Shown piece by piece: positions 49,524-63,448 of a stretch of DNA of 64,000 bases (its first letter is position 1; each line of letters starts with the position of its first letter). Below the pieces are notes generated by a model. That model did no database searches. It worked only from the letters and a program-made list of their open reading frames with translations, and was not told where the DNA came from. A program made the translations under genes and the position numbers. Location: assembly GCF_015191005.1 (NCBI RefSeq), contig NZ_CP040442.1, positions 372,001 through 436,000 of the forward strand, in the 5' to 3' direction. Source of the stretch: Kaistella flava (ex Peng et al. 2021). Lineage in GTDB: Bacteria > Bacteroidota > Bacteroidia > Flavobacteriales > Weeksellaceae.

Positions 49524-49919
49524 ATGATAAAAACCTCTGCACTCAACAAATCCGTCAATCTCTTATTTGTAGCCCTCTTGAGTATCGCCTTATATTCCTG
49601 TTCCGCAAACAGAGGCAACGCCAACGCTTCCTATCAATCTACCACCGTTTCTTATTACGCAAAAAAATATAATGGTAAAAAAACGGCCAGCGGAGAGGTT
49701 TACAGGCCTACTAAAATGACCGCCGCCCACAAAACATTGTCTTTCGGCACCAAAGTGGAAATCATCAATATCGAAAATTCAAAAAAAGTAATTGTTACGA
49801 TCAATGACCGGGGTCCACTAAAAGCAGGCAGGGCATTCGATCTTAGTCAGGGTGCATTCAAAAAAATAGGGAATCTGAACGATGGTATTCTAAAGGTGAA
49901 GTATAAAGTACGTAAGTAA
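49524..49919 (+). CDS. RlpA-like septal ring lytic transglycosylase family lipoprotein
   Basis: This 131-residue protein has a signal ending in a lipobox (LSIALYSC, cysteine 27), then a single double-psi beta-barrel: VSYYAKKYNGKKTASGEVYR, MTAAHKTLSFGTKVEI, VTINDRGPLKAGRAFDLSQG and an end GILKVKYKVRK. RlpA proteins cut glycan strands lacking stem peptides; the Asp in NDRGP and the His in AAHKTL are conserved here. It lacks the C-terminal SPOR domain of the E. coli form, so septal targeting would need another partner. It is likely outer-membrane anchored. Confidence 0.87.
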   Translation: MIKTSALNKSVNLLFVALLSIALYSCSANRGNANASYQSTTVSYYAKKYNGKKTASGEVYRPTKMTAAHKTLSFGTKVEIINIENSKKVIVTINDRGPLKAGRAFDLSQGAFKKIGNLNDGILKVKYKVRK

Positions 49920-50421
49920 AGGTTAGATTTTAACAAAGTTGAAATAGCTTGTTACTTGTGATCATTACTTGTCTTTAAAATGGAATTCTACTTGCGAAAG
50001 TGGAGTTTTTTTGTGGAAGTATTATTGGCCTGTTTGGCTATCGAGAAATAAATAGAAGTCACTGTTAATACTACGACGTATTTTGGCATTGTTGCTCTTT
50101 ACCTTTACTTCAAACTAAGAATCTAAAATCAGCCATATTTTACCTTCTGACAAATATTGTTTTTTCGCAAAACCTGAACTGTCTGATGAAATAAGATGGA
50201 GTTATGAACTCGTGTAAACTATACAAAATGGAAAGGAAGTCAACCTCATAATTGAACTCAATTTTGAACTTTTTTTACAATTATTATTCAGTAAGAACTT
50301 CGCAAAAGTTGCTCTCTTCAATTGTACAATATTGTATCATTTTTAACCGCAATCATATCTTAATTTTTCTTAAATTTCAACTTCTATAAAAAATTATACG
50401 AACTCAATTTTCACTTTTTAA
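49920..50421. other. Intergenic stretch before the defence island
   Basis: No gene is supported over ~500 bases. It contains the terminator at 49984-50012 and the AT-rich upstream region of hsdM. No attachment site or tRNA was recognised at this left edge of the island. Confidence 0.45.
49984..50012 (+). terminator. Terminator after the RlpA-like gene
   Basis: AATTCTACTT pairs with AAGTGGAGTT (two G-T pairs) around the tetraloop GCGA and is followed by a T run. Confidence 0.75.
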
Positions 50422-52860
50422 ATGGCCATTAAAAAAACAGAACTATACCGCTCACTTTGGGCGAGTTGTGACGAATTACGAGGCGGAATGGACGCCTCTC
50501 AATATAAAGATTATGTACTCACGATGTTATTCGTAAAGTATATTTCAGACAAAGCGAAATCAGATCAGGATTTTGCCATCGAAATTCCAGAAGGTGCCTT
50601 CTTTGAGGATATGGTGAACCTGATCGGCAATACCGAGATTGGTGATAAAATCAATAAGCAGGTTTTGAATCCGATTAAAGAAGCCAATGGTCTGAATGAT
50701 TTCCCCGACTTTAATGACGAAAGCAAATTAGGCAAAGGAAAAGATCTGGTAGAAACCGTTTCTAATCTGGTCAGAATCTTTAATGATAACAGTTTAGATT
50801 TTTCTAAAAACTCCGCGGAAGGCGATGATATTCTGGGCGATGCTTATGAATATTTGATGCGACCTTTTGCGACAGAATCAGGAAAATCCAAAGGTCAATT
50901 TTATACGCCTGCCGAAGTTTCAAGGATTTTAGCAAAAGTTATTGGGATTACTTTTAATAATGCTACTACGCAAACTACGGCTTATGATCCGACCTGTGGA
51001 TCGGGATCGTTATTGTTGAAAGTGGCGAACGAAGCCGGAAAAGCCATTACGCTTTACGGTCAGGAAAAAGAAACCACCACCGCCAACTTAGCGCACATGA
51101 ACATGATTTTGCATGGTGCGGAAACAGCAGAAATTGTTGCCGATAATACGTTGACAAGACCCGCGTACAAAGAAGCCGATGGCAGTTTGAAACGTTTTGA
51201 TTACGTGGTTGCCAATCCGCCTTTTTCTTTGAAGAGTTGGAGCAATGGCGTGAATATCGAAAGTGATGAATACGACCGATTTACTTTAGGCGTTCCTCCC
51301 GAGAAGAATGGAGATTATGCTTTTCTACTGCATATTTTACAATCGATGAAAGCCAATGGAAAAGCCGCAGTAGTTTTGCCACATGGCGTTTTGTTCCGTG
51401 GAAATGCAGAAGGTGAAATCCGTAAAAACATTTTAAAGAAAGGTTATATCAAAGGGATTATCGGTTTGCCGGCGAATTTATTTTACGGTACGGGAATTCC
51501 GGCCTGTATAATTGTGCTCGACAAAGAAAATGCAGAACATCGTAAAGGAATTTTCATGATGGATGCCAGCAAAGGTTTCCTGAAAGATGGGAACAAAAAC
51601 CGTTTGCGTGAACAGGATTTGCGTAAGATTACCGATGTCTTTACCCAAATGCAGGAAGTTCCCAAATACAGCCGCATGGTTCCGATGAGCGAAATCGCCG
51701 ATGCTAAAAACGATTACAATTTAAATATTCCGCGATATATCGATATGCAGGAAAGTGAAGATATTCAGGATTTATTGGCGCATTTGCAAGGTGGCATTCC
51801 GGTGCGTGATCTGGAAGCGATGCAAACGTACTGGAACGCTTATCCGAAACTAAAACATGATTTATTCTCGCCGTTGCGGGAAGGTTATGTGAAACTGAAT
51901 GTTGCAGTTGCCGATATTAAAAGCACTATTTATAATCATCCAGAATTCAAGGCATTTAATGCAACTTTAGACCAAACCTATCACGATTGGTTAGACGGTC
52001 AAATGAAAATTTGGGAAACCTTGGCGGAACATTCCAACGGTAAAGATATGATTGCCCAAATGAGCGAAAGTCTGCTCAAAGCCTTTGAAAATAATACTTT
52101 GGTGAATGGTTACGATTTATACCAATACGCGATGACCTATTGGCAGGAAACCATGCAGGATGATGTGTATTCGGTTTCTTTGGACGGCTGGAAAGCCGGC
52201 AATGAATGGGAACGAACCATCATTAAAGGAAAGAAAGGCAAAGATGGCAAACCCGGAAAAGATAAAGAAGTGGCAGGATTAGCTGGCGTGGAAGGACGAA
52301 TGATTTCGCCGGAATTGATGGTCGAAGTTTATTTTAAAGAACTAAATGATAAACTAAATGACCTTGAAAATCAATACAACTTAACCCAAGAAGCTTTAAA
52401 AGAAATTGAAGATGAGAATCAAGATGACGATTCGATCTTTGCAGAATTAGATAAAATTAATCTAAAGAATGCTAAAGTTTTATATAAAGACAGGAAGGCA
52501 GTAAAAGCGCCAAAAGAAGAACTGAGTTATATTAAAAGCTATATTGATTCTCAAGAAGCATTAGCCGGAATAGGAAAATTAATTAAAATTGCTAAAGATA
52601 ACATTGAAGCAAAAATTGTTGAGAAATATCCTAAACTGACCGAAGCCGATATTAAAGATCTGGTTTTGAATCACAAATGGAAAGCGCATCTCTTAACGAC
52701 TTTGCACCAGGAACAGGATAAAATCTCGCAGGGTTTAACCCAAAGAATTAATGCTTTGGCAGAACGCTATGCGACGACTTTGGCAAGTTCGCAAACGGAA
52801 TTGGCAGCAGCCGAAACCAAAGTGATGGCGCATTTAGAAAAAATGGGATTGGTATGGTAA
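50422..52860 (+). CDS. hsdM: Type I restriction-modification system, methylase subunit HsdM
   Basis: This 812-residue N6-adenine DNA methyltransferase subunit has a helical N-terminal domain (KTELYRSLWASCDELRGGMD), the S-adenosylmethionine motif DPTCGSGSLLLK (~189-200), and catalytic motif IV NPPF (265-268). It is longer than the usual ~500 residues: after residue ~480 comes an extra helical, coiled-coil-rich region with a short Gly-Lys stretch (GKKGKDGKPGKDKE, ~600-615). It overlaps hsdS by 7 bases. With HsdS it modifies host DNA; with HsdR it restricts unmodified DNA. Confidence 0.92.
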   Translation: MAIKKTELYRSLWASCDELRGGMDASQYKDYVLTMLFVKYISDKAKSDQDFAIEIPEGAFFEDMVNLIGNTEIGDKINKQVLNPIKEANGLNDFPDFNDESKLGKGKDLVETVSNLVRIFNDNSLDFSKNSAEGDDILGDAYEYLMRPFATESGKSKGQFYTPAEVSRILAKVIGITFNNATTQTTAYDPTCGSGSLLLKVANEAGKAITLYGQEKETTTANLAHMNMILHGAETAEIVADNTLTRPAYKEADGSLKRFDYVVANPPFSLKSWSNGVNIESDEYDRFTLGVPPEKNGDYAFLLHILQSMKANGKAAVVLPHGVLFRGNAEGEIRKNILKKGYIKGIIGLPANLFYGTGIPACIIVLDKENAEHRKGIFMMDASKGFLKDGNKNRLREQDLRKITDVFTQMQEVPKYSRMVPMSEIADAKNDYNLNIPRYIDMQESEDIQDLLAHLQGGIPVRDLEAMQTYWNAYPKLKHDLFSPLREGYVKLNVAVADIKSTIYNHPEFKAFNATLDQTYHDWLDGQMKIWETLAEHSNGKDMIAQMSESLLKAFENNTLVNGYDLYQYAMTYWQETMQDDVYSVSLDGWKAGNEWERTIIKGKKGKDGKPGKDKEVAGLAGVEGRMISPELMVEVYFKELNDKLNDLENQYNLTQEALKEIEDENQDDDSIFAELDKINLKNAKVLYKDRKAVKAPKEELSYIKSYIDSQEALAGIGKLIKIAKDNIEAKIVEKYPKLTEADIKDLVLNHKWKAHLLTTLHQEQDKISQGLTQRINALAERYATTLASSQTELAAAETKVMAHLEKMGLVW

Positions 52861-54059
52861 AGGAAAGGAAAATGAAGCAGACGGAGATTGGTTTGATTCC
52901 GGAGGATTGGAACGTTATTAAACTTGGAGATTACTCTAAACTAAAAAATGGCTTTGCATTTAAAAGTGAATATTTTTCTGATAAAGGTCCAATCGTTGTA
53001 ACTCCAGGGAACTTTAAATTGGAAGGAGGATTAAAATTTGAATCAAACAAAACGATAAGATATAAAGGTCCAGTTGATGATTTCATGAAGTTTTCAAATG
53101 GTGATTTAATAATGGTAATGACTGATTTAACGCCAGATTGCAATTTGTTAGGCAAATCTGGGATAGTTAATACTGATGAAGTTTTACTGCACAATCAAAG
53201 GATTGGAAAACTTATTTTGAAGAAAGATTTAAATTCATTGTACTTAAGTTATTTTTTGAATTCCAGTATGTTTTCAAATAGAATGAAAAATACTGCAACT
53301 GGTTCAACTGTTAGACATACTTCAAGTCCCACAATTAAAAATACTTATTTATCACTTCCACCACTCGCCGAACAAGAAGCCATTGCAACAGCCTTAAGTA
53401 ATTGCGATTCCTGGATTGACAGCATCGAAGAAGTTCTAGCCAAAAAACGCCTCATCAAACAAGGTGCGATACAGGAATTGTTGACGCCGAGAGAGGATTG
53501 GGAAGTGAAAAAGTTGGGGGAAATAATCAATTTTAAAAATGGTGCTGCTCACGAAAACGTTGTTGATGAAAATGGTGATTATGTAATTGTCAACTCAAAA
53601 TTTATTTCGCAAGAAGGTAGAGTCAGAAAGTATTCAAACGCCTTTTTGTGTCCTTTATATAAAAATGAAATTGTAATGGTAATGAGTGATATCCCTAATG
53701 GGAAAGCACTTGCCAAATGTTTTATTATTGACCATAACAATACTTATACTTTAAATCAAAGAATTTGTGCTTTTGAAGCAAAAGATAATTTTAATCCAAA
53801 GTTTCTATTTTATAAAATAAATAGAAATGATTATTTCTTATCGTTTGATAGTGGAAGTGGACAAACCAATTTGAGAAGAGATGAAGTTCTAAATTGTCCA
53901 ATTGATTTCCCATCCCTTTCGGAGCAAATGCGTATCGCCACGATCTTATCGGATATGGATGTAGAAATCGAAGTGCTGGAAGAAAAACTGCACAAGGCCC
54001 GCCAAATCAAGCAAGGCATGATGCAGGAACTGCTGACGGGGAGAGTGAGGTTGGTGTAA
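52854..54059 (+). CDS. hsdS: Type I restriction-modification system, specificity subunit HsdS
   Basis: This 401-residue subunit has two target-recognition domains and two conserved helical spacers. Half 1 begins TEIGLIPEDWNVIKLGDY and ends LPPLAEQEAIATALSNCDSW, then IDSIEEVLAKKRLIKQGAIQ. Half 2 begins EDWEVKKLGEIINFKNG and ends FPSLSEQMRIATILSDMDVE, then IEVLEEKLHKARQIKQGMMQ and ELLTGRVRLV. Each domain reads one half of a split DNA target. The first start overlaps hsdM; an internal ATG at 52872 has a purine-rich sequence before it. No invertible repeats or recombinase gene are nearby, so shuffling of specificity is not indicated. Confidence 0.9.
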   Translation: MVKERKMKQTEIGLIPEDWNVIKLGDYSKLKNGFAFKSEYFSDKGPIVVTPGNFKLEGGLKFESNKTIRYKGPVDDFMKFSNGDLIMVMTDLTPDCNLLGKSGIVNTDEVLLHNQRIGKLILKKDLNSLYLSYFLNSSMFSNRMKNTATGSTVRHTSSPTIKNTYLSLPPLAEQEAIATALSNCDSWIDSIEEVLAKKRLIKQGAIQELLTPREDWEVKKLGEIINFKNGAAHENVVDENGDYVIVNSKFISQEGRVRKYSNAFLCPLYKNEIVMVMSDIPNGKALAKCFIIDHNNTYTLNQRICAFEAKDNFNPKFLFYKINRNDYFLSFDSGSGQTNLRRDEVLNCPIDFPSLSEQMRIATILSDMDVEIEVLEEKLHKARQIKQGMMQELLTGRVRLV

Positions 54060-54088
54060 CTATTAAAAATTAAAAAAACAATAAAACT

Positions 54089-54403
54089 ATGCAAAGAGAA
54101 GAATTTAAAAATTGGCTTGTAAATGATTATAAAAATGGCGAGGGAATGAGCGAGGGCTCTGCTGATAATAGAATTAGTAATGCCCAAAAAGTCGAAAATA
54201 TTTTTGGTGATTTTGATGAGCTTTATGATCAAAATAGATTAGAAGATATTCTTGATTTATTAAAATATTCTGTAGATGACGAAACATCATGCAAGGAACT
54301 TCCTAAAGGTTTACAAATAGATGGAAATAAATATGATGGTATGGCTACGCTTAGACAGGCAGTCAAGAGATATCTTGAATTCAAAAAGTTTAAAAGCAAA
54401 TGA
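54089..54403 (+). CDS. Small protein of the DUF262 module, hypothetical (104 residues)
   Basis: The protein begins MQREEFKNWLVNDYKNGEGM and continues SADNRISNAQKVENIFGDFD, ELYDQNRLEDILDLLKY and a C-terminal LRQAVKRYLEFKKF. I recognise this helical arrangement as similar to a short domain found at the N-terminus of some HNH or restriction-related proteins, where it may bind DNA or partner proteins; here it is a stand-alone protein. It lies 29 bases after hsdS and 54 before the first DUF262 gene, within the same run of genes. Function is unproven. Confidence 0.6.
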   Translation: MQREEFKNWLVNDYKNGEGMSEGSADNRISNAQKVENIFGDFDELYDQNRLEDILDLLKYSVDDETSCKELPKGLQIDGNKYDGMATLRQAVKRYLEFKKFKSK

Positions 54404-54457
54404 ACTACAGATTATATCAATCCTACAGCAACAATTAATAAATTCAATCCAGAATAT

Positions 54458-56371
54458 ATGAATCAAAACACTTTACTTTTACTACCAATAAAAAATCTCC
54501 ATGGGAAAGAATTTATCATCGAAAAATACCAGCGAGGATACAAATGGGGGAAAAAAGAAATTCTAGAACTTTTAAATGATATCAATGAATATGAGCCAAG
54601 TAAAGGAGTTTACTGTATTCAACCAATTATATTAAAACCACTTAATGTTCTTAATAAAGAAGATATAACAATTGAAGACCTGACTTATACAATTTACAAT
54701 GAAAATGAGGTGATTGATGGTCAGCAGAGAACAACATCAATTTATCTTATTTTAGAATACTTAAGATATCTAGGTTTAGTTGATGAAAAAATTAAATATT
54801 CAATTAACTATAAAATAAGAGATAAAAGTGGTGCTTTTTTATCTGAACAAATAAGAGGTCTATTCGAAGATTTATCAACAGACATTATTGAAAAATTAGC
54901 TGAAAAAAATTATAAAGATTTATCCGAAGTTCAAACTTTTTGGTCAAATTACATATTAAAAAACGAAGGAAAAGGATATGATAATGTAGACATCTATCAT
55001 TTTTTTACGGCATCTTATTATATTAAAAACTGGTTCAAGCAGTATATTGGAGAAAATCACGAACAAAGAAAATCGTTTGTAGATAAATTGATTAATCATA
55101 TTCATTTTATTTGGTATTCTTTAGACGATTCAATTGAAAGTAAAGATGTGGTTAATGTATTCCTAAATAATAATAAAGGAAAAATTTCTCTAACAACTTC
55201 TGAATTAATAAAAGCATTATTTATTTTAGATATTTCAAATAAAGAAAGTAAAGCGATAGCAGAGTATAAAATCAATCGTTTTGCTTTAGAATGGGATATG
55301 ATAGAGAAGAAGTTGCAGGATGACACCTTTTGGTATTTTATTCAACCGGATAAAGAAAAATATAATAAAGGAACTAGAATTGATTTTTTATTTGATTTAA
55401 AATTCGAAAGAAAAAATAAGGATGATGACTCTTTCTCTTACCGAAAGTATGAGCAGCTTTTTAATGAATTAAAAAACGATAGGGAAGGGAGTTTTGAAAG
55501 TAAATGGAGTGATATTATTCAATTGTATAATAAACTTATCGATTGGTACAATGAACCATTCACTTACAATTACATAGGTTATTTAACTGCCACTAAAATA
55601 TTAAATTTACAGGGGATTTTATCTCTAAGTGTAGGTAGAAGGAAACAAGAATTCAAGCAAGATTTAAAAGATTGTATAAAAACAGAATTTGCAAAAACTA
55701 TTAGAAAAGATAATAAACAAATCCTTCCATATCATATAGATAATTTACATTATAAAGATTTTTATCGCCAATCACAGAATGTGATTTTGTTATATAACGT
55801 TCTTTACCATGTTGAAAGAATGGCTCAAAATAAATTTCCTTTCGAGCTGTATGTAAAAGAGAAATGGAGTATTGAGCATATCATACCTCAAACGCCAAAA
55901 GACATCGATGATTTCGTGGAATATAAATTATGGTTTGAGGATCAAATTAAATATAAAAATCCTGAAAACGAGATTACGTCGGAAGAAAAAGATATCCTTG
56001 AAAAGTTAAAAAAAATTAATGGTTTTGAAGATTTGAAAATTGATATAGAATTACAAGATCGTGTAAATAAGCTTGCGGAAAGTTTTGAAAATAAAACTCA
56101 TTTGATTTCAAATTTATTATTATTAGATAGAAATACAAATAGTGCATTAAGTAACCACAGGTTCTTAGATAAGCGAACAAAAATTCTAGAATTTGACCGT
56201 CATGGAAAAAACGATGAAAATGAACGGGTCTTTATTCCTATGGAAACTCTTAATGCGTTTAATAAAACCTTCTCTGAAAATCTTGAACTTAAACAGTGGT
56301 CTAATGAAGACGGCCAAGATTACAAAGATGCTATTGAAGCGCGTTTAGAATACTTTTTACCAAAAAACTAA
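54458..56371 (+). CDS. DUF262 and DUF1524 (HNH) protein, GmrSD-like
   Basis: This 637-residue protein has an N-terminal DUF262 domain with IIEKYQRGYKWGKKEI (~18-33) and DGQQRTTS (87-94), a ParB/Srx-like nucleotide-binding signature. The C-terminal domain fits DUF1524: WSIEHIIPQTP (470-480; catalytic His474) followed by HLISNLLLLDRNTNSALSNH and a final KR pair, an HNH nuclease. The domain pair is that of GmrS and GmrD, the type IV restriction enzyme that attacks glucosylated phage DNA. It sits inside a type I locus immediately before a second DUF262 gene (10-base gap to its preferred start), which suggests joint action. Confidence 0.85.
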   Translation: MNQNTLLLLPIKNLHGKEFIIEKYQRGYKWGKKEILELLNDINEYEPSKGVYCIQPIILKPLNVLNKEDITIEDLTYTIYNENEVIDGQQRTTSIYLILEYLRYLGLVDEKIKYSINYKIRDKSGAFLSEQIRGLFEDLSTDIIEKLAEKNYKDLSEVQTFWSNYILKNEGKGYDNVDIYHFFTASYYIKNWFKQYIGENHEQRKSFVDKLINHIHFIWYSLDDSIESKDVVNVFLNNNKGKISLTTSELIKALFILDISNKESKAIAEYKINRFALEWDMIEKKLQDDTFWYFIQPDKEKYNKGTRIDFLFDLKFERKNKDDDSFSYRKYEQLFNELKNDREGSFESKWSDIIQLYNKLIDWYNEPFTYNYIGYLTATKILNLQGILSLSVGRRKQEFKQDLKDCIKTEFAKTIRKDNKQILPYHIDNLHYKDFYRQSQNVILLYNVLYHVERMAQNKFPFELYVKEKWSIEHIIPQTPKDIDDFVEYKLWFEDQIKYKNPENEITSEEKDILEKLKKINGFEDLKIDIELQDRVNKLAESFENKTHLISNLLLLDRNTNSALSNHRFLDKRTKILEFDRHGKNDENERVFIPMETLNAFNKTFSENLELKQWSNEDGQDYKDAIEARLEYFLPKN

Positions 56372-56381
56372 TTTGACTAAC

Positions 56382-58820
56382 ATGACTGACACAAAATATA
56401 CAACTTTCTGGAATGTATTAAATAATATAGGAATAGAAATTCCAGCGATACAACGTGATTATGCACAAGGAAGAGAAGTCGGAAGGATACCGATTATTAG
56501 AAAAAAATTCATCAATACATTATTATCGGCTATTGAAGATAATACACCGACGAGATTAGATTTTATTTATGGAAAAATTTATGGTGAAAAGAACATTGAA
56601 GAATTACGAAAAAACACACATTCTATTAAATCTTTGTTAGATAGTATACGTGAATATGCTGACAGTATTGATTTGATAGTTTCTGAAAATGACATAGTTG
56701 AAAAGGGTAATAATAAAGGAGAAACAGTTTTTTTAATTCCTTTAGATGGACAACAGCGCTTGACTGCTTTATTTCTGATTCACTGGTTTATTAATTCAAA
56801 CCTTGAAAAAAATGAATGTTATAAAAACTTACAACAACTTAAAAGATTTAGGTATAAAACAAGAAAAAGTACAGAGTTATTTATTGAAATGCTATGCGAT
56901 GAAACCGTAAGTTTTAATTTTACCAAAAATTTGTACGAGGAAATTGTTAATCATGAAAGATTTTCTACCACTTGGAAAGATGATCCGACGGTTAAGTCAA
57001 TGTTAGTCGTAATTAATGAAATTCAACAGTACTTTAATAATAAAGAAGAGAAAATCCTGTCAGAAGATTATTCTTCAATTTGGAAGAACCTTACCGAGAA
57101 TGAAATTTTACATTTTGATTTTTTAAACTTAAAGAATTTTAGTTTATCTGATGATCTATATGTTAAGATGAATGCGAGAGGAAAAGAGTTAAGTGATTTC
57201 GAAAATTTTAAGGCGTGGCTCATAGGTAAAATTGAGAATGATGAATGGTTGGAAAGTGAGTTATGGAATGAGTATTCATTAAAATTCGATGTAGAATGGA
57301 ACGATTTATTTTGGGCTCAAAAAAGCGAAAACGTTTATGAAATAGACGATGCATACTTTAATTATTTTAAAATTCTTTATTTAACTGATTTAGTGTCCGA
57401 AGCCAAAATAATGAAAAGTGCATTTAAGGCAGGCGAAATTAATGATGTAATCGAATCGATTATTAAAAATTCGCCCGATTTTGACTTTGAAAAGATATAT
57501 AATGAAAAATTTAAAAACCAATTAAGTAGATATTTTAAAATCATAGATTTTTGTGGTGATAATAAACTTAAGAGTGAGAAAAACAGAGTTGCTATTCAAG
57601 AATTTAAAAAATTCTTATTTAATAGTACATCTGAAATATCATGGATAGATTTAATTAAGAATTATATAATCATTTCATTTGTTGAAGCCAATTCAAAGAA
57701 CGCATTAAATCAATTTAATTTTGAATCATATTTTAGAGTATTAAGTAATCTATTTAATAATCAAACCTTTGATAGTGCTTCATTATATCAGAATGCGATA
57801 AATGATATTAATAGTATAAACGAAGATTTAATTGGTAATGATTATAATATATACGACTGGTTAATTAATTTAGAAGAAGAGACATATAGTTCTGTGTTTA
57901 CTAAAGGACAAATTTCGGAGGACAAATTAAAAACATCTTTAATTTATCAAGGAGATCAAAAAGTAATTGACGAACAATGGTTAGCATTAATAGAAGAGGC
58001 TGAATCGCATGAATATTTTAATGGTAAAATAGGATTTCTTTTAACCTTTTCAAATAAAGATAAAAATTTGTTTAGAAAATATTTAGACAAAATTTCTCCG
58101 TTATTTACAAGTAAAATTTTAAATATTGAAAATTATTTGCTTCAAAGATCGTTGTTAACTTACGGGAATTATTTTGGTTCAAGAGGCGGTGATAAGGTTT
58201 CATTTTTTAAAAATGATAATACCAGTTATAGATCTCGTAGAGAGAACTGGTTAGGTTTTTTATTGGATTATAATCAGAATTTATTATTAAAAAATTTAGT
58301 TGATGATGAGTTATATGATGAAAGTAATGTCATAGATTCCTTAAATAAAATAATCGATCGCTTTATTGAAAATAATTCTGAAATTGACATGATAAATACA
58401 AACATATCAAATATTGATTATTACAAACTGTATATTTATTGTCCTGATTTATTTAAATATGGCAGTTCTAATTTAATCCAGTTAGATCAAAAAAAGTATG
58501 CTTATCAATTAAATGCAACAAATACCGGCGGATATTTTAATGATGTTTTGCTGGAGTATATTAAAAAAAAATATTTCAGTAAATGTGAAGTGGTTGAAGT
58601 TAAAAGAACTTTAGGCTGGGATAATAGTCCTAATATAGTATTAGGTAATAAAATATTTAGAGTTGTACCAAAAAATAATAATATCCTCGTTGAAGAAGTA
58701 GAAAACGGTGATGTCATTGAAGAATTTAATACATTACGAGAATTGATTAATTTTATAGAAATTAACCTTATTTCAAATCATGATTTGCCCGCATCAAATG
58801 CATTGCCCAAAACCGTATAA
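56382..58820 (+). CDS. Second DUF262 protein, large, without visible HNH domain
   Basis: From the ATG at 56382 it has ~812 residues; an upstream in-frame TTG is less likely as the start. The DUF262 motifs are clear (IEIPAIQRDYAQGRE near residue 20 and PLDGQQRLTALFLIHW near 125), and MNARGKELSDFENFK (~270) is another family block. The remaining ~500 residues are acidic, Asn- and Ile-rich and largely helical, and I find no EHxxP HNH motif. A possible role is a regulatory or substrate-sensing subunit for the preceding GmrSD-like nuclease. AT-richness is higher than in hsdM and hsdR, which fits a separate origin. Confidence 0.8.
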   Translation: MTDTKYTTFWNVLNNIGIEIPAIQRDYAQGREVGRIPIIRKKFINTLLSAIEDNTPTRLDFIYGKIYGEKNIEELRKNTHSIKSLLDSIREYADSIDLIVSENDIVEKGNNKGETVFLIPLDGQQRLTALFLIHWFINSNLEKNECYKNLQQLKRFRYKTRKSTELFIEMLCDETVSFNFTKNLYEEIVNHERFSTTWKDDPTVKSMLVVINEIQQYFNNKEEKILSEDYSSIWKNLTENEILHFDFLNLKNFSLSDDLYVKMNARGKELSDFENFKAWLIGKIENDEWLESELWNEYSLKFDVEWNDLFWAQKSENVYEIDDAYFNYFKILYLTDLVSEAKIMKSAFKAGEINDVIESIIKNSPDFDFEKIYNEKFKNQLSRYFKIIDFCGDNKLKSEKNRVAIQEFKKFLFNSTSEISWIDLIKNYIIISFVEANSKNALNQFNFESYFRVLSNLFNNQTFDSASLYQNAINDINSINEDLIGNDYNIYDWLINLEEETYSSVFTKGQISEDKLKTSLIYQGDQKVIDEQWLALIEEAESHEYFNGKIGFLLTFSNKDKNLFRKYLDKISPLFTSKILNIENYLLQRSLLTYGNYFGSRGGDKVSFFKNDNTSYRSRRENWLGFLLDYNQNLLLKNLVDDELYDESNVIDSLNKIIDRFIENNSEIDMINTNISNIDYYKLYIYCPDLFKYGSSNLIQLDQKKYAYQLNATNTGGYFNDVLLEYIKKKYFSKCEVVEVKRTLGWDNSPNIVLGNKIFRVVPKNNNILVEEVENGDVIEEFNTLRELINFIEINLISNHDLPASNALPKTV

Positions 58821-58967
58821 TCCAATTGTTAACCGAATAAGATTACATCAATTATAGTGATTAGGACGATCTTCTTAAATGATAAATCTTTTCAGCTTAT
58901 CTGTGTTTAAGCATAGGATATAAACTATGTAAATTATCACATAAAAAATAAATTGTAATTTGGTGTA

Positions 58968-59618
58968 ATGGATAAATACAAAAATAAATACCGCATACAA
59001 TCTGCCCGCGCCACCTGGTGGAATTACGGATGGGCGGGTGCGTATTTTATTACCATTTGTACCAAAAACAGGAATCATTATTTTGGAGGAATTAATCAGG
59101 GCGAAAAAAACAAAATGAATTTATCAAATTGCGGGATATTGGCAGATGTATTTTGGCATGAAATAAAAAATCATGCCCAGAATGTAGAATTGGGCGCATT
59201 TGTGGTAATGCCGAATCATATTCATGGGATATTGATATTAGGCGAGGATTCGGAATCTGGCGCAGATTCTGAAGATACGGGGGATATGCGGGATACGCGC
59301 GATATTGCAGAGACGGGGCATGCCCCGTCTGTACCGCGATTGGGATTGCGATCGCAATTAAAATCCAATGATAATTCCCAATTCAATGAGGATTTCGAAT
59401 CTATAAAATCGCCATCAAGGATGGGGAAAAATACCGTATCATCGATTATAGGATCCTATAAATCTGCCGTAACCAAAAATGCGAATCGTTTGGGATTAGA
59501 ATTTGCGTGGCAAGAGCGATTTCATGATCATATCATCCGCAATGATGGTGAATATCAACGGATCAATGATTATATAGAATCTAATATTAATCATTGGAAT
59601 GAGGATAAATTTAGATAA
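58968..59618 (+). CDS. REP-associated tyrosine transposase (RAYT, IS200-like Y1)
   Basis: This 216-residue HUH single-strand transposase has its metal-binding motif in VVMPNHIHGILI (H84, H86), and the likely nucleophile is Y202 in RINDYIESN near the end. The opening RIQSARATWWNYGWAGAYF and FITICTKNRNHYFG match the Bacteroidota RAYT pattern. These enzymes cut and join at REP hairpins. The palindrome AGACGGGGCATGCCCCGTCT occurs twice: once in frame inside the gene (59311-59330, encoding ETGHAPS) and once immediately after the stop. It sits between the DUF262 pair and hsdR, so it interrupted the island. Confidence 0.88.
   Translation: MDKYKNKYRIQSARATWWNYGWAGAYFITICTKNRNHYFGGINQGEKNKMNLSNCGILADVFWHEIKNHAQNVELGAFVVMPNHIHGILILGEDSESGADSEDTGDMRDTRDIAETGHAPSVPRLGLRSQLKSNDNSQFNEDFESIKSPSRMGKNTVSSIIGSYKSAVTKNANRLGLEFAWQERFHDHIIRNDGEYQRINDYIESNINHWNEDKFR
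59311..59330. repeat. REP-type palindrome inside the RAYT gene
   Basis: AGACGGGGCATGCCCCGTCT is a perfect 20-bp palindrome. It is read in frame as part of a variable loop of the transposase. Confidence 0.85.
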
Positions 59619-59638
59619 AGACGGGGCATGCCCCGTCT
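59619..59638. repeat. REP-type palindrome directly after the RAYT stop
   Basis: This is the same 20-bp palindrome as at 59311-59330, starting at the base after TAA. A further GC-rich segment with GCCGCGTCTGTACGGC follows before hsdR. Confidence 0.85.
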
Positions 59639-59700
59639 CAACAGGAGCCGCGTCTGTACGGCAAGCGCCCTGCAAATAATGAAAATAAAAAACACACGAA

Positions 59701-62700
59701 ATGATTAACCCAATCGAACGCATCACCCAAAATCGTATCATCAAATTGTTCACCGATCAATTGGGTTACATCTACTATGGGAATTGGGAAGATCGTCCTA
59801 CTAACAGCAATATAGAATCAACCGATCTCAAGAAATTTTTGATAAAGAAAGGGTATGCAGATTCTTTGGTAGAAAAAGCCATCACTGAATTAACGCAATT
59901 AGCCAGTTCCAACACCGGCAATTTATATGAACGGAATCAAAAGATGTACAATCTTTTGCGTTATGGCGTAAAGGCAAGACCTGAACTAGGGGAACAGTTT
60001 GAAACTATTTTTCCGATTGATTGGAAGAATTGGGAAGAGAATGAATTTGGTATTGCGGAAGAAGTAACGCTTTATAATCACAAACACAATCGCCGTCCGG
60101 ATCTCGTTCTTTATATTAATGGAATTGCTTTTGGGGTGCTCGAATTAAAAAGAGGAACAGTGGATATTGCAGAAAGTATTCGTCAGAATATTTCTAATCA
60201 ACAGGAATTGTTTTCACAAAGATTTTTTACGACGGTCCAAATGATTTTGGCGGGAAACAATACCCAGGGTTTACGCTATGGAACGATAGAAACACCAGAG
60301 AAATATTACCTTTCCTGGAAAGAAGATGAGCAGGATAATGACGATTACAAACTCGATAAATACCTGAAGAAATTATGCGAGAAATCGCGTGTCATTGATT
60401 TGCTATACAATGGCGTTATCTATGATGCCGGCATAAAAAAACTGCCTCGTCCTCATCAATATTTTGGTTTGAAGGCGGCACAGGATTTTGTGAAGCGTAG
60501 AGAAGGTGGCATTATTTGGCATACCCAAGGTTCGGGCAAATCTCTAATGATGGTGATGATTGGAAAGTGGATTTTAGAAAACATTCCGAATTCCAGAATT
60601 GTTATCTTAACCGACCGTACGGAATTAGACGATCAAATCGAGCGGGTTTTTAATGATGTTGGTGAAACGGATATTGCTAAAACAAAATCGGGAAAAGAAT
60701 TAATGCATTATTTGCAGGCTTCTAAACCGCGTTTAATCTGTTCTTTGATTCACAAGTTTGGGAATAAAGGCGAAGCAGATTTTGATGTCTTCATTAAAGA
60801 ATTAAAAGATAATCCGATTACAACCCAAGGTGAGATATTTGTTTTTGTAGATGAATGTCACCGGACGCAAAGTGGGAAACTCAATGAAGCCATGAAAGCT
60901 ATTTTGCATAATGCAGTATTTATTGGTTTCACCGGAACGCCTTTATTGAAAGTCGATAAGAAAACAACGATGGATGTTTTCGGACGATATATTCATACTT
61001 ACAAGTTTAATGAAGCAGTTCAGGATGGTGTTGTAAAAGATTTGATGTATGAAGGCCGAATGATTGAACAGAATTTGACTTCACAGAAAAAAATAGATCA
61101 ATGGTTTGATGCTAAAACAAAAGGACTGAATGATTTCCAGCGGAATGCTCTAAAAAAGCAATGGGGTAAGATGCAGCATATCTTAAGTTCGAAAGGACGC
61201 ATGGAGAAAATTGTAGCAGACATTGTCGTTGATTTCAGTACCAAAGCACGTTTAGCCAATCAAAATGGAAATGCCATATTGGTGGCGGGAAGTATTTATG
61301 AAGCCGCGAAATATTACAGTCTATTTCTTCAAACCGAATTAAAAGGAAAGTGCGCTTTGGTCACTTCCTACAATCCAAATGCGAGCGATATTTCTAAAGA
61401 AGATACCGGTGCGGAAACAGAAACGGACAAAGAATTCATTTATAAAATCTACACTGAACTATTAGAAAACGTAAGTGCGACAGGCAATAAATCAAAAACC
61501 GAAACCTACGAATCTGAGGTAAAAGAATTATTCCGAAAGCAGCCCGCCAAGATGAAATTGCTGATTGTAGTTTCTAAACTCTTAACAGGATTTGATGCGC
61601 CACCGTGCAGTTATATTTACATCGATAAAAAGATGCAGGATCATACTTTATTTCAGGCGATTTGCCGCGTAAACCGTTTAGATACCGATGATAAAGATTA
61701 TGGCTATATCGTAGATTACATGGAATTATTTGGAAATGTAACCGATGCAATTGACGTTTATACTTCGGAGTTGGATAGTGAAGGTTTTACAAAAGAAGAG
61801 GTTTCTATTCAGTTGAAAGATCGGTTGAAAGTTGCGGCAGATCGGTTAGAAGTCGCTTTGGAAACCGTAGAAGCCTTGTGTGAAAATGTTCCAAATAAAA
61901 AAACAGATTTAGATTTCATTAAATATTTCTGTGGAAATACGGAAAACCCAGACGATTTGAAAGCAAATGAATATAAACGGATGGCTTTGTATAAAGCAAT
62001 TGTCGAATATATTCGTGCTTTTGCCAATATGACGACCGATTTTGAATTGGCTGGTTATCAGGAAAAGGAAATTAAACATTTTAAAGACCGTTTGGATTTC
62101 TATTTAAATGTTCGCGAAGTGATCAGAATTGCAAGTAATGAAATAATTGATCTGAAAGTCTACGAAGCAGATATGCGTTTCCTTTTGGATACTTATATCC
62201 GCGCTGAAGAATCAGAAGTAATTTCTCCATTTGAAGATATTTCTTTATTAGATTTAATGGAAACCGATATGGACAAAGCGATTGATTCTTTACCTAAATC
62301 TGTGAAAGGAAATAAAGAAGCCGTCGCTGAGGTTATTGAAAATAATGTAAGAAGTAAGATTGTAGAAGATCATTTGCTGGATCCTAAATATTTTGATGAA
62401 ATGTCGGTTCTTTTAGCGGAACTCATTGAGGCAAGAAAACGGGATTCAATTCTGTATCAGGAATATTTATTGAAAATGGCGGAGTTAATTCGCATGGTGA
62501 ATAAAGGTCAGAAAGATGATGTTCCAAAATCATTAAATACAAAAGGCAAAGTTGCTTTATATCATACTTTGGAAGATGAAGAATTGGCGCTGGTTTGTGA
62601 TCGCGAAGTTCAATATGCAAAACAGGAAGGTTTTAGGGATAATTTGATGAAGCAAAGGAAAGTTAAAAAAGCAATTAAGAAGGTTGTTGAAGATGATGCT

Positions 62701-62751
62701 TTAGCAGAACAGGTTTATCAGATTATAGAACAGAATAAAGAAGATTATTAA
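59701..62751 (+). CDS. hsdR: Type I restriction-modification system, endonuclease/translocase subunit HsdR
   Basis: This 1016-residue motor and nuclease subunit has an N-terminal nuclease of the PD-(D/E)xK type: D134 in RRPDLVLYIN and E148-x-K150 in VLELKRG. Helicase motifs follow: TQGSGKS (275-281), DECH (384-387), FTGTPLL (motif III), LLIVVSKLLTGFDAPP and ICRVNR (motif VI). The C-terminal ~300 residues are helical and would contact HsdM. It pulls DNA toward the bound complex and cuts at collision. It is separated from hsdS by 5.6 kb of other genes. Confidence 0.93.
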   Translation: MINPIERITQNRIIKLFTDQLGYIYYGNWEDRPTNSNIESTDLKKFLIKKGYADSLVEKAITELTQLASSNTGNLYERNQKMYNLLRYGVKARPELGEQFETIFPIDWKNWEENEFGIAEEVTLYNHKHNRRPDLVLYINGIAFGVLELKRGTVDIAESIRQNISNQQELFSQRFFTTVQMILAGNNTQGLRYGTIETPEKYYLSWKEDEQDNDDYKLDKYLKKLCEKSRVIDLLYNGVIYDAGIKKLPRPHQYFGLKAAQDFVKRREGGIIWHTQGSGKSLMMVMIGKWILENIPNSRIVILTDRTELDDQIERVFNDVGETDIAKTKSGKELMHYLQASKPRLICSLIHKFGNKGEADFDVFIKELKDNPITTQGEIFVFVDECHRTQSGKLNEAMKAILHNAVFIGFTGTPLLKVDKKTTMDVFGRYIHTYKFNEAVQDGVVKDLMYEGRMIEQNLTSQKKIDQWFDAKTKGLNDFQRNALKKQWGKMQHILSSKGRMEKIVADIVVDFSTKARLANQNGNAILVAGSIYEAAKYYSLFLQTELKGKCALVTSYNPNASDISKEDTGAETETDKEFIYKIYTELLENVSATGNKSKTETYESEVKELFRKQPAKMKLLIVVSKLLTGFDAPPCSYIYIDKKMQDHTLFQAICRVNRLDTDDKDYGYIVDYMELFGNVTDAIDVYTSELDSEGFTKEEVSIQLKDRLKVAADRLEVALETVEALCENVPNKKTDLDFIKYFCGNTENPDDLKANEYKRMALYKAIVEYIRAFANMTTDFELAGYQEKEIKHFKDRLDFYLNVREVIRIASNEIIDLKVYEADMRFLLDTYIRAEESEVISPFEDISLLDLMETDMDKAIDSLPKSVKGNKEAVAEVIENNVRSKIVEDHLLDPKYFDEMSVLLAELIEARKRDSILYQEYLLKMAELIRMVNKGQKDDVPKSLNTKGKVALYHTLEDEELALVCDREVQYAKQEGFRDNLMKQRKVKKAIKKVVEDDALAEQVYQIIEQNKEDY

Positions 62752-62752
62752 A

Positions 62753-63448
62753 ATGCGAACAGAGCATTTACAAATTGGGAGTTTAGAGGTTGAAGTTAAA
62801 TTTAAACCTATTAAAAACCTGCACTTAAGCGTTCATCCACCACATGGAAAAGTGACGGTTTCCTCTCCGGAATATTTTGATCTTGAAAAAGTTCGGGTTT
62901 ATCTCACCACGAAAATTGGCTGGATCAAACGCGAACAAAAGAAAATTGCCAGCCAGGAAAGAGAAGGTGAGAAATTAATGATTACGAGGGAAAGTCATTA
63001 TTTTCTGGGTAAAAGATATTTGCTAAAAGTTACAGAAGCTAAAAGAGCGTATGTTGAAACTCATCATCACGTAATAGAACTCTTTTCTCCTGCGCATTAC
63101 ACCACTGCACAGAAACAGAAACAACTTGACAATTGGTACCGCAGAGAACTGAACACCATTTTAGGTAAACTGTTAATGCACCATTTACCAATTATGAATC
63201 TTACGGTTGATACTTACAGCGTGCGTAAGATGAAAACCAAATGGGGGAGTTGTAACAATGAAAATAGAACTCTGAATTTTAATATTGAACTCATCAAAAA
63301 GCCCATAGAATGCATCGAATATATTGTTGTGCATGAACTGGTTCATTTATTAGAAAGGAATCATAACAAGAATTTCATTATTCTCATGGATCGATATTTA
63401 CCGAATTGGAGAACTCAGAAAAAAATCTTAAACGAATTACCAATCTAA
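62753..63448 (+). CDS. YgjP-like (DUF45) metallopeptidase domain protein
   Basis: This 231-residue protein begins one base after the hsdR stop. The N-terminal part (IKNLHLSVHPPHGKVTVSSP) and the zinc motif IVVHELVHLLERNHNKNF, with KMKTKWGSCNNENRTLNFN before it, fit the YgjP/WLM-like metallopeptidase family (M48-related). Genes of this type commonly follow hsdR, and a role in processing or turnover of restriction subunits has been suspected from context only. The close spacing indicates co-translation with hsdR. No signal peptide is visible, so it is cytoplasmic. Confidence 0.87.
   Translation: MRTEHLQIGSLEVEVKFKPIKNLHLSVHPPHGKVTVSSPEYFDLEKVRVYLTTKIGWIKREQKKIASQEREGEKLMITRESHYFLGKRYLLKVTEAKRAYVETHHHVIELFSPAHYTTAQKQKQLDNWYRRELNTILGKLLMHHLPIMNLTVDTYSVRKMKTKWGSCNNENRTLNFNIELIKKPIECIEYIVVHELVHLLERNHNKNFIILMDRYLPNWRTQKKILNELPI

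Follow-up and report, generated by a model that had tools for sequence, protein, structure and literature searches.

We find that two adjacent genes of Kaistella flava (ex Peng et al. 2021), here called A and B, probably encode a two-protein, nucleoside triphosphate (NTP)-dependent restriction enzyme of the modification-dependent (type IV) class and of the GrwAB kind that occupies, as a cassette, a cargo slot between the hsdS and hsdR genes of a type I restriction operon. The genes lie in a 64,000-nucleotide stretch of contig NZ_CP040442.1 (RefSeq assembly GCF_015191005.1, positions 372,001 to 436,000 of the forward strand), which we refer to as the window, and the assignment is made because of their gene order, their domains and the spacing of conserved residues. 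The hsdS-hsdR interval holds three intact open reading frames (ORFs) on the plus strand: a gene for a protein of 104 residues (54089..54403), then A (54458..56371, 637 residues) and B, which ends at 58820 and starts at 56373 with TTG or at 56382 with ATG (815 or 812 residues). The gaps at the front of this trio measure 29 and 54 bp. A sequence-only reading of the window had described the trio, running in one direction, as filling the interval and forming a distinct defence module; the three genes do stand there, although a further gene of 216 residues (58968..59618) ahead of hsdR had been overlooked.

The protein encoded by A combines the two domains of GmrSD-type enzymes. Pfam places a DUF262 (GmrSD_N) domain at residues 17-255 (2.7e-27) and a DUF1524 (GmrSD_C) His-Me nuclease domain at residues 428-631 (1.4e-7), bearing out the architecture that the sequence-only reading had proposed from motifs. 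Alignment of 16 A proteins revealed that Q25 and R26, the DGQQR motif at 87-91, F235xxxN239, E473, H474, N552, N561 and N566 are invariant in all of them. PADLOC gave weak matches to HEC-06 (5.2e-10), Orf5 and SspE, and profile comparison with the PDB matched A to SspE and other DUF262 chains within the DUF262 part. DUF262 and DUF1524 joined in one protein is also the architecture of single-chain GmrSD, BrxU, SspE and PADLOC HEC-06. Single-chain GmrSD, BrxU and SspE work as one kind of protein, whereas A is found with its partner B, which adjoins each strong A match. Elsewhere in the chromosome, the same genome encodes a separate 603-residue protein with DGQQR and LEHIIP motifs (G000:C1:1129628-1131439, or L066:7629-9440), apparently a single-chain GmrSD.

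B has the first of these domains (GmrSD_N, 2.6e-17, residues 15-283) and no GmrSD_C match, in agreement with the earlier description of a DUF262 protein that lacks a nuclease motif. The roughly 500 residues that follow matched no Pfam family above threshold, and PADLOC yielded no match for B at 0.01. All 26 aligned B proteins retain DGQQR unchanged, QR is also intact in the window's B, and the third motif reads YxxxN (Y260xxxN264 in the window) in 15 of 15 aligned B proteins. The arginine of DGQQR is R126 or R129 in the window, counted from the ATG or the TTG start, and falls at R76-R84 or R120-R131 in relatives; the window's B and several relatives carry about 45 extra residues between QR and DGQQR compared with other family members. 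Ratios of nonsynonymous to synonymous substitution rates (dN/dS) were 0.16 and 0.33 for whole B in two pairs of loci, and 0.18 (L003/L004, dS above 1) and 0.36 (L005/L007) for the part after DUF262. Because the NTPase motif is kept and these ratios point to purifying selection, we judge B to be functional and reject the idea, which the sequence-only reading had allowed for, that it is a broken relic.

An AlphaFold2 model of B built from 26 sequences (mean predicted local distance difference test (pLDDT) score 78.9, predicted template modelling (pTM) score 0.62) has a mixed domain at its N-terminus, followed by a long helical stretch (about 272-692) and then by a beta-rich domain at the C-terminus (698-799). 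The notion that the C-terminus is a decayed DUF1524 domain found no support, the profile alignment of A with B covering the DUF262 part only; a PDB profile search with B matched profile positions 7-93 only.

A and B do form a module. When genome contigs were searched with B as query, 15 loci were found, and all 15 carry an A homologue directly upstream of B on the same strand, at gaps of -50 to +12 bp (B runs off the contig in L015). Among 395 Bacteroidota genomes, in which the best three candidates for A or the best two for B were scored per genome, the A profile reached 246 bits or more in 12, the others among the matches listed scoring at most 94 bits. B adjoined A in each of the 12, as nine strong matches, two weak ones and one (G353) that was missed by the profile and recovered by BLAST; in G316, A is split over two frames. 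The B profile scored 351 bits or more in nine genomes and 96-106 bits in two, a first count of 32 genomes at E <= 0.001 having been inflated by the shared DUF262 domain. On plasmids, 15 records matched B, and A lay upstream of B in all ten that we examined (the remaining five come from second strains of genera already covered), split over two frames in one. These plasmid pairs span six phyla: Bacteroidota, Bacillota, Actinomycetota, Spirochaetota, Campylobacterota and Pseudomonadota. With the B of L011 as query, 16 plasmid records matched, the extra one from Prevotella. Phage records gave no match to the B of the window or of L011, and E. coli genomes gave no DNA match to the L011 pair.

The two genes therefore adjoin each other in every locus examined, inside and outside type I loci, where the sequence-only reading had considered that they might rarely be neighbours. 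What is not supported in its three-gene module is the place of the 104-residue gene, which accompanies two of the 12 Bacteroidota pairs. In a Vibrio genome (L005), OLD-TOPRIM and UvrD genes, which we take to be Gabija-like from their domains, lie directly upstream of the pair (L005:4628-7949), and a type I operon in divergent orientation is found close by; L007 has ORFs of matching lengths and layout upstream of its pair.

Two-gene type IV enzymes that resemble GmrSD appeared in print in 2024-25 as TgvAB (PMC11411939), GrwAB (PMC12137116) and GmrSD-ECOR17 (PMC12373910) and have been reviewed (PMC12409362). In all three systems both proteins are required and phages with modified DNA are targeted (PMC11411939, PMC12137116, PMC12373910), and TgvAB (PMC11411939) and GrwAB (PMC12137116) require the NTPase motif in each of their two proteins. 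GrwAB, from WASA Vibrio cholerae, has the nuclease gene first and the DUF262 partner second, adjacent and on the same strand, as in the window. GrwA, like A, joins DUF262 to DUF1524 and has QR, DGQQR, FxxxN and H-N-N motifs, and GrwB, like B, continues from DUF262 into a long C-terminus of unknown domains. The GrwA residues R81, H431, N521 and N530 (PMC12137116) agree within one position with R81, H431, N520 and N529 of the L011 A protein. The two asparagines are spaced by 9 in GrwA and in 16 of 16 A proteins, with an H-N spacing of 90 in GrwA and 61-89 here. The setting differs: GrwAB is found on the VSP-II island next to a Shedu gene, whereas the window's pair sits in a type I operon with an extra 104-residue gene.

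The other published systems share different features with A and B. TgvAB likewise places two adjacent DUF262 proteins, one of them with DUF1524, between hsdS and hsdR, but in reversed order, the DUF262-only protein coming first (tgvA, VC1767) and the DUF262-DUF1524 protein second (tgvB, VC1766; PMC11411939). In TgvB the spacing of H571 and N602 is 31, against 61-89 for H-N here, although these asparagines may not be equivalent. GmrSD-ECOR17 and other two-gene enterobacterial GmrSD groups are alike by description, with two DUF262 (ParB_n) proteins, one of which has an HNH domain, and both needed (PMC12373910).

Several observations weigh against a GrwAB-kind enzyme in a type I cargo slot. Kinship with GrwAB is drawn from architecture, gene order and residue spacing, and the comparison is with printed residue numbers rather than with sequences. 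L011, which agrees so closely with GrwA, was the best fit among 16 A proteins; in the window, A has R91, H474, N552 and N561, and its R-H spacing is 383 as against 350 in GrwA. The GrwB arginine is R86 (PMC12137116), outside both ranges occupied by B relatives and unlike the window's R126/R129, and the GrwAB figure legend names FxxxN for both proteins (PMC12137116), whereas the aligned B proteins have YxxxN. By sequence, the region of B after DUF262 resembles no solved chain in the PDB at E <= 0.1. The survey of 395 genomes covers the top-scoring candidates of each genome, and for six of the 12 Bacteroidota pairs the surrounding 17 to 20 kb that we retrieved contain no labelled hsd gene. Because A and B share about 20-35% identity with most relatives, the modification that they recognise may also differ.

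The relation of the pair to its host operon supports the view that it is a cassette. The type I genes of the window, called from ORFs and domain matches, are hsdM (50422..52860), hsdS (52854..54059) and hsdR (59701..62751), all on the plus strand. Among the 12 Bacteroidota pairs, five occupy the hsdS-hsdR interval (the window, L055, L056, L060 and L064) and one lies directly after hsdR (L059); the pairs of L002 and L003 are likewise embedded in type I operons. Across 27 loci, leaving out L015 (B cut) and L062 (A broken), the distance matrices of A and B correlated at r = 0.918, a value reached in none of 2000 label permutations, and the nearest neighbour was identical for A and B in 20 of the 27. 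Since co-inherited adjacent genes would correlate anyway, it is the contrast with the host operon that carries weight. Over the seven embedded loci (21 comparisons), the correlation was 0.93 for A with B and 0.97 for HsdM with HsdR, but -0.17 for A with HsdR and -0.06 for B with HsdR. The window and L055 are 73% identical in HsdM, 76% in HsdR, 66% in the YgjP-like protein encoded after hsdR and 60% in the 104-residue protein, as against 30% in A and 29% in B, whereas the window and L002 share 49% in A and 42% in B, with 27% in HsdM over 283 residues and 25% in HsdR over 169. A and B co-diverge with each other but not with the surrounding HsdM and HsdR, and so behave as a cassette; judged from these distances, the two genes appear to travel together rather than with their host operon.

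Base composition also differs between cargo and host in the window. The guanine-plus-cytosine (GC) content is 27.3% in A, 26.5% in B and 31.1% in the 104-residue gene, compared with 39.9% in hsdM and 36.3% in hsdR, and at third codon positions (GC3) it is about 21% in the cargo compared with 38.5% and 33.3%. Some other embedded loci, L064 among them (A 33.2%, HsdR 33.5%), show less of this contrast or none.

We found that the hsdS-hsdR interval is a cargo site. HsdR proteins of the window's clade occur at E <= 1e-100 in 44 of the 395 genomes; of the 42 other than the window and G095, 32 were examined, and slot contents were counted in the 21 with hsdS labelled upstream, the other 11 being left out. 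The slot is empty or nearly so, with at most about 155 bp, in five of the 21 (L083, L102, L103, L107 and L110). Other loci hold a KilA-N gene (L082), a gene for a REase-ARP protein (L084) or a Y1-like gene with a gene for a NucS_C protein (L104), and L081 and L097 hold DUF262 pairs in the Tgv order, the first protein with Pfam DUF7834 after DUF262 and the second with DUF1524. The window's B, in contrast, lacks DUF7834, and we found no paper on this family among the open-licence literature searched. The position between hsdS and hsdR has been suggested as a potential hotspot for defence genes (PMC12255303), and GmrSD homologues and RloF were already known to have type I genes as neighbours (PMC4619093).

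Could A and B do without each other, or could they belong to the type I enzyme? With the full architecture of single-chain GmrSD, A could be a working nuclease alone and B a regulator, an immunity factor or a decoy for a phage inhibitor; in the case of TgvAB, its authors leave open whether the partner is regulatory, structural or needed against such an inhibitor (PMC11411939). We consider this quite unlikely, given that each strong A match in our sample had B adjoining, that DGQQR is kept throughout the B proteins, and that in TgvAB, GrwAB and GmrSD-ECOR17 one protein alone gives no protection. A role of the trio as a working component of this type I enzyme, such as one that modulates HsdR, is very improbable. 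Its embedding in the operon behind short gaps would fit such a role, as would the overlapping genes in L055 and the observation that tgvAB alone is 10 to 100 times less protective against several phages than the five-gene cluster (PMC11411939). However, tgvAB does protect by itself, and an hsdR mutant of the whole cluster is still protective (PMC11411939). The pair does not co-diverge with HsdM and HsdR, sister operons carry other cargo or none in the slot, and pairs occur where no hsd gene is labelled, both in half of the 12 genomes and on plasmids, where none is annotated in the stretch shown (the PLSDB tables are incomplete).

The 104-residue gene raises a question of its own, and we read it as an optional accessory. 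The protein has no match in Pfam, NCBIfam or PADLOC, and a model from three sequences gave an all-helical bundle (best pLDDT 87, three of five models 54-63). Matches to the gene were found in three of the 395 Bacteroidota genomes, namely the window's own, G095, where it holds the same position, and G197, where no pair was detected in the vicinity, and in two of 237 class genomes, the window's own and a weak match inside a 344-residue frame. These counts do not support a core part. Of the seven embedded loci, the window and L055 have the gene and L002, L003, L056, L060 and L064 do not; a 103-residue gene at the same position in L002, considered as a relative, has no detectable likeness to it.

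A role for the small protein as a genuine third subunit, reading DNA or linking A and B to the type I enzyme, is accordingly unlikely, although several features speak for it. The gene is kept in the window and L055 while the A-B pairs differ, it shares the low GC3 of the cargo in both, and its dN/dS is 0.14 over 101 codons, with dS saturated (2.2). On plasmids, the same domain forms the N-terminus of an McrB-type AAA ATPase whose gene precedes that of McrC, and also of a NucS_C (NucS-type nuclease) protein. This domain is all that the trio has in common with McrBC, having no AAA or McrC match. A more specific and rather improbable proposal is that the protein is a free-standing McrB/NucS-type helical N-domain, serving as a fixed reader or adaptor for interchangeable GrwAB-type cassettes and linking the two restriction systems; it would stay with one type I lineage while unlike GrwAB-type pairs swap beside it.

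Two neighbouring genes accompany the cargo and the host operon. The 216-residue gene between B and hsdR (plus strand) matches Y1/IS200 transposases weakly, below threshold (E 0.068), and two GGGGCATGCCCC palindromes lie at 59315 and 59623, ahead of hsdR. Because a 52% identical ORF occupies the same slot in L104 (L104:11708-12313), the gene and the palindromes may have a role in cargo turnover; the sister operon L055 lacks a Y1-like gene. A gene for a YgjP-like metallopeptidase (62753..63448, plus strand) directly follows hsdR in the window, as it does in L003, L055 and 32 of 32 stretches of this HsdR clade, and is a nearly fixed companion in these type I operons. In L109, hsdR and the YgjP-like gene are both in pieces. 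A search of positions 49901-63400 found no TTG/TAnnTTTG combination that would indicate a Bacteroidetes-type promoter before the trio, and sigma-70-like and terminator-like matches in the same region were no better than in shuffled sequence.

By analogy with the published relatives, the GrwAB-kind pair would work as one enzyme, with A and B acting together. Both DUF262 domains would use NTP while sensing hypermodified bases, which may be sugar-modified hydroxymethylcytosine and perhaps 7-deazaguanine, and the DUF1524 domain of A would cut the DNA. The division of labour in the sequence-only reading, in which one DUF262 protein cuts and the other senses or regulates, is sharper than the evidence, as TgvAB and GrwAB depend on the NTPase motifs of both proteins. 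Unmethylated DNA would be the target of the type I enzyme, and modified DNA that escapes it the target of the pair. We take the 104-residue protein as an optional accessory, which may bind DNA or serve as an adaptor. That the pair complements the type I system in this way is plausible, and the idea has already been printed for TgvAB (PMC11411939).

The kind of system described here, the two-gene GmrSD-like type IV enzyme, is already published. Judged against the open-licence papers searched, what seems new is the divergent Bacteroidota branch, the presence of GrwAB-order pairs in type I operons, the exchange of cassettes and the domain link of the small gene. Together our results would extend two-gene GmrSD-like enzymes to this branch and indicate that GrwAB-order pairs, besides TgvAB, occupy the hsdS-hsdR interval and appear to be exchanged as whole pairs, without regard to the type I scaffold. 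Loci with the same scaffold and another pair, and loci with the same pair lineage and another scaffold, are natural experiments that may help to explain why these systems have two DUF262 proteins and what the second one recognises.

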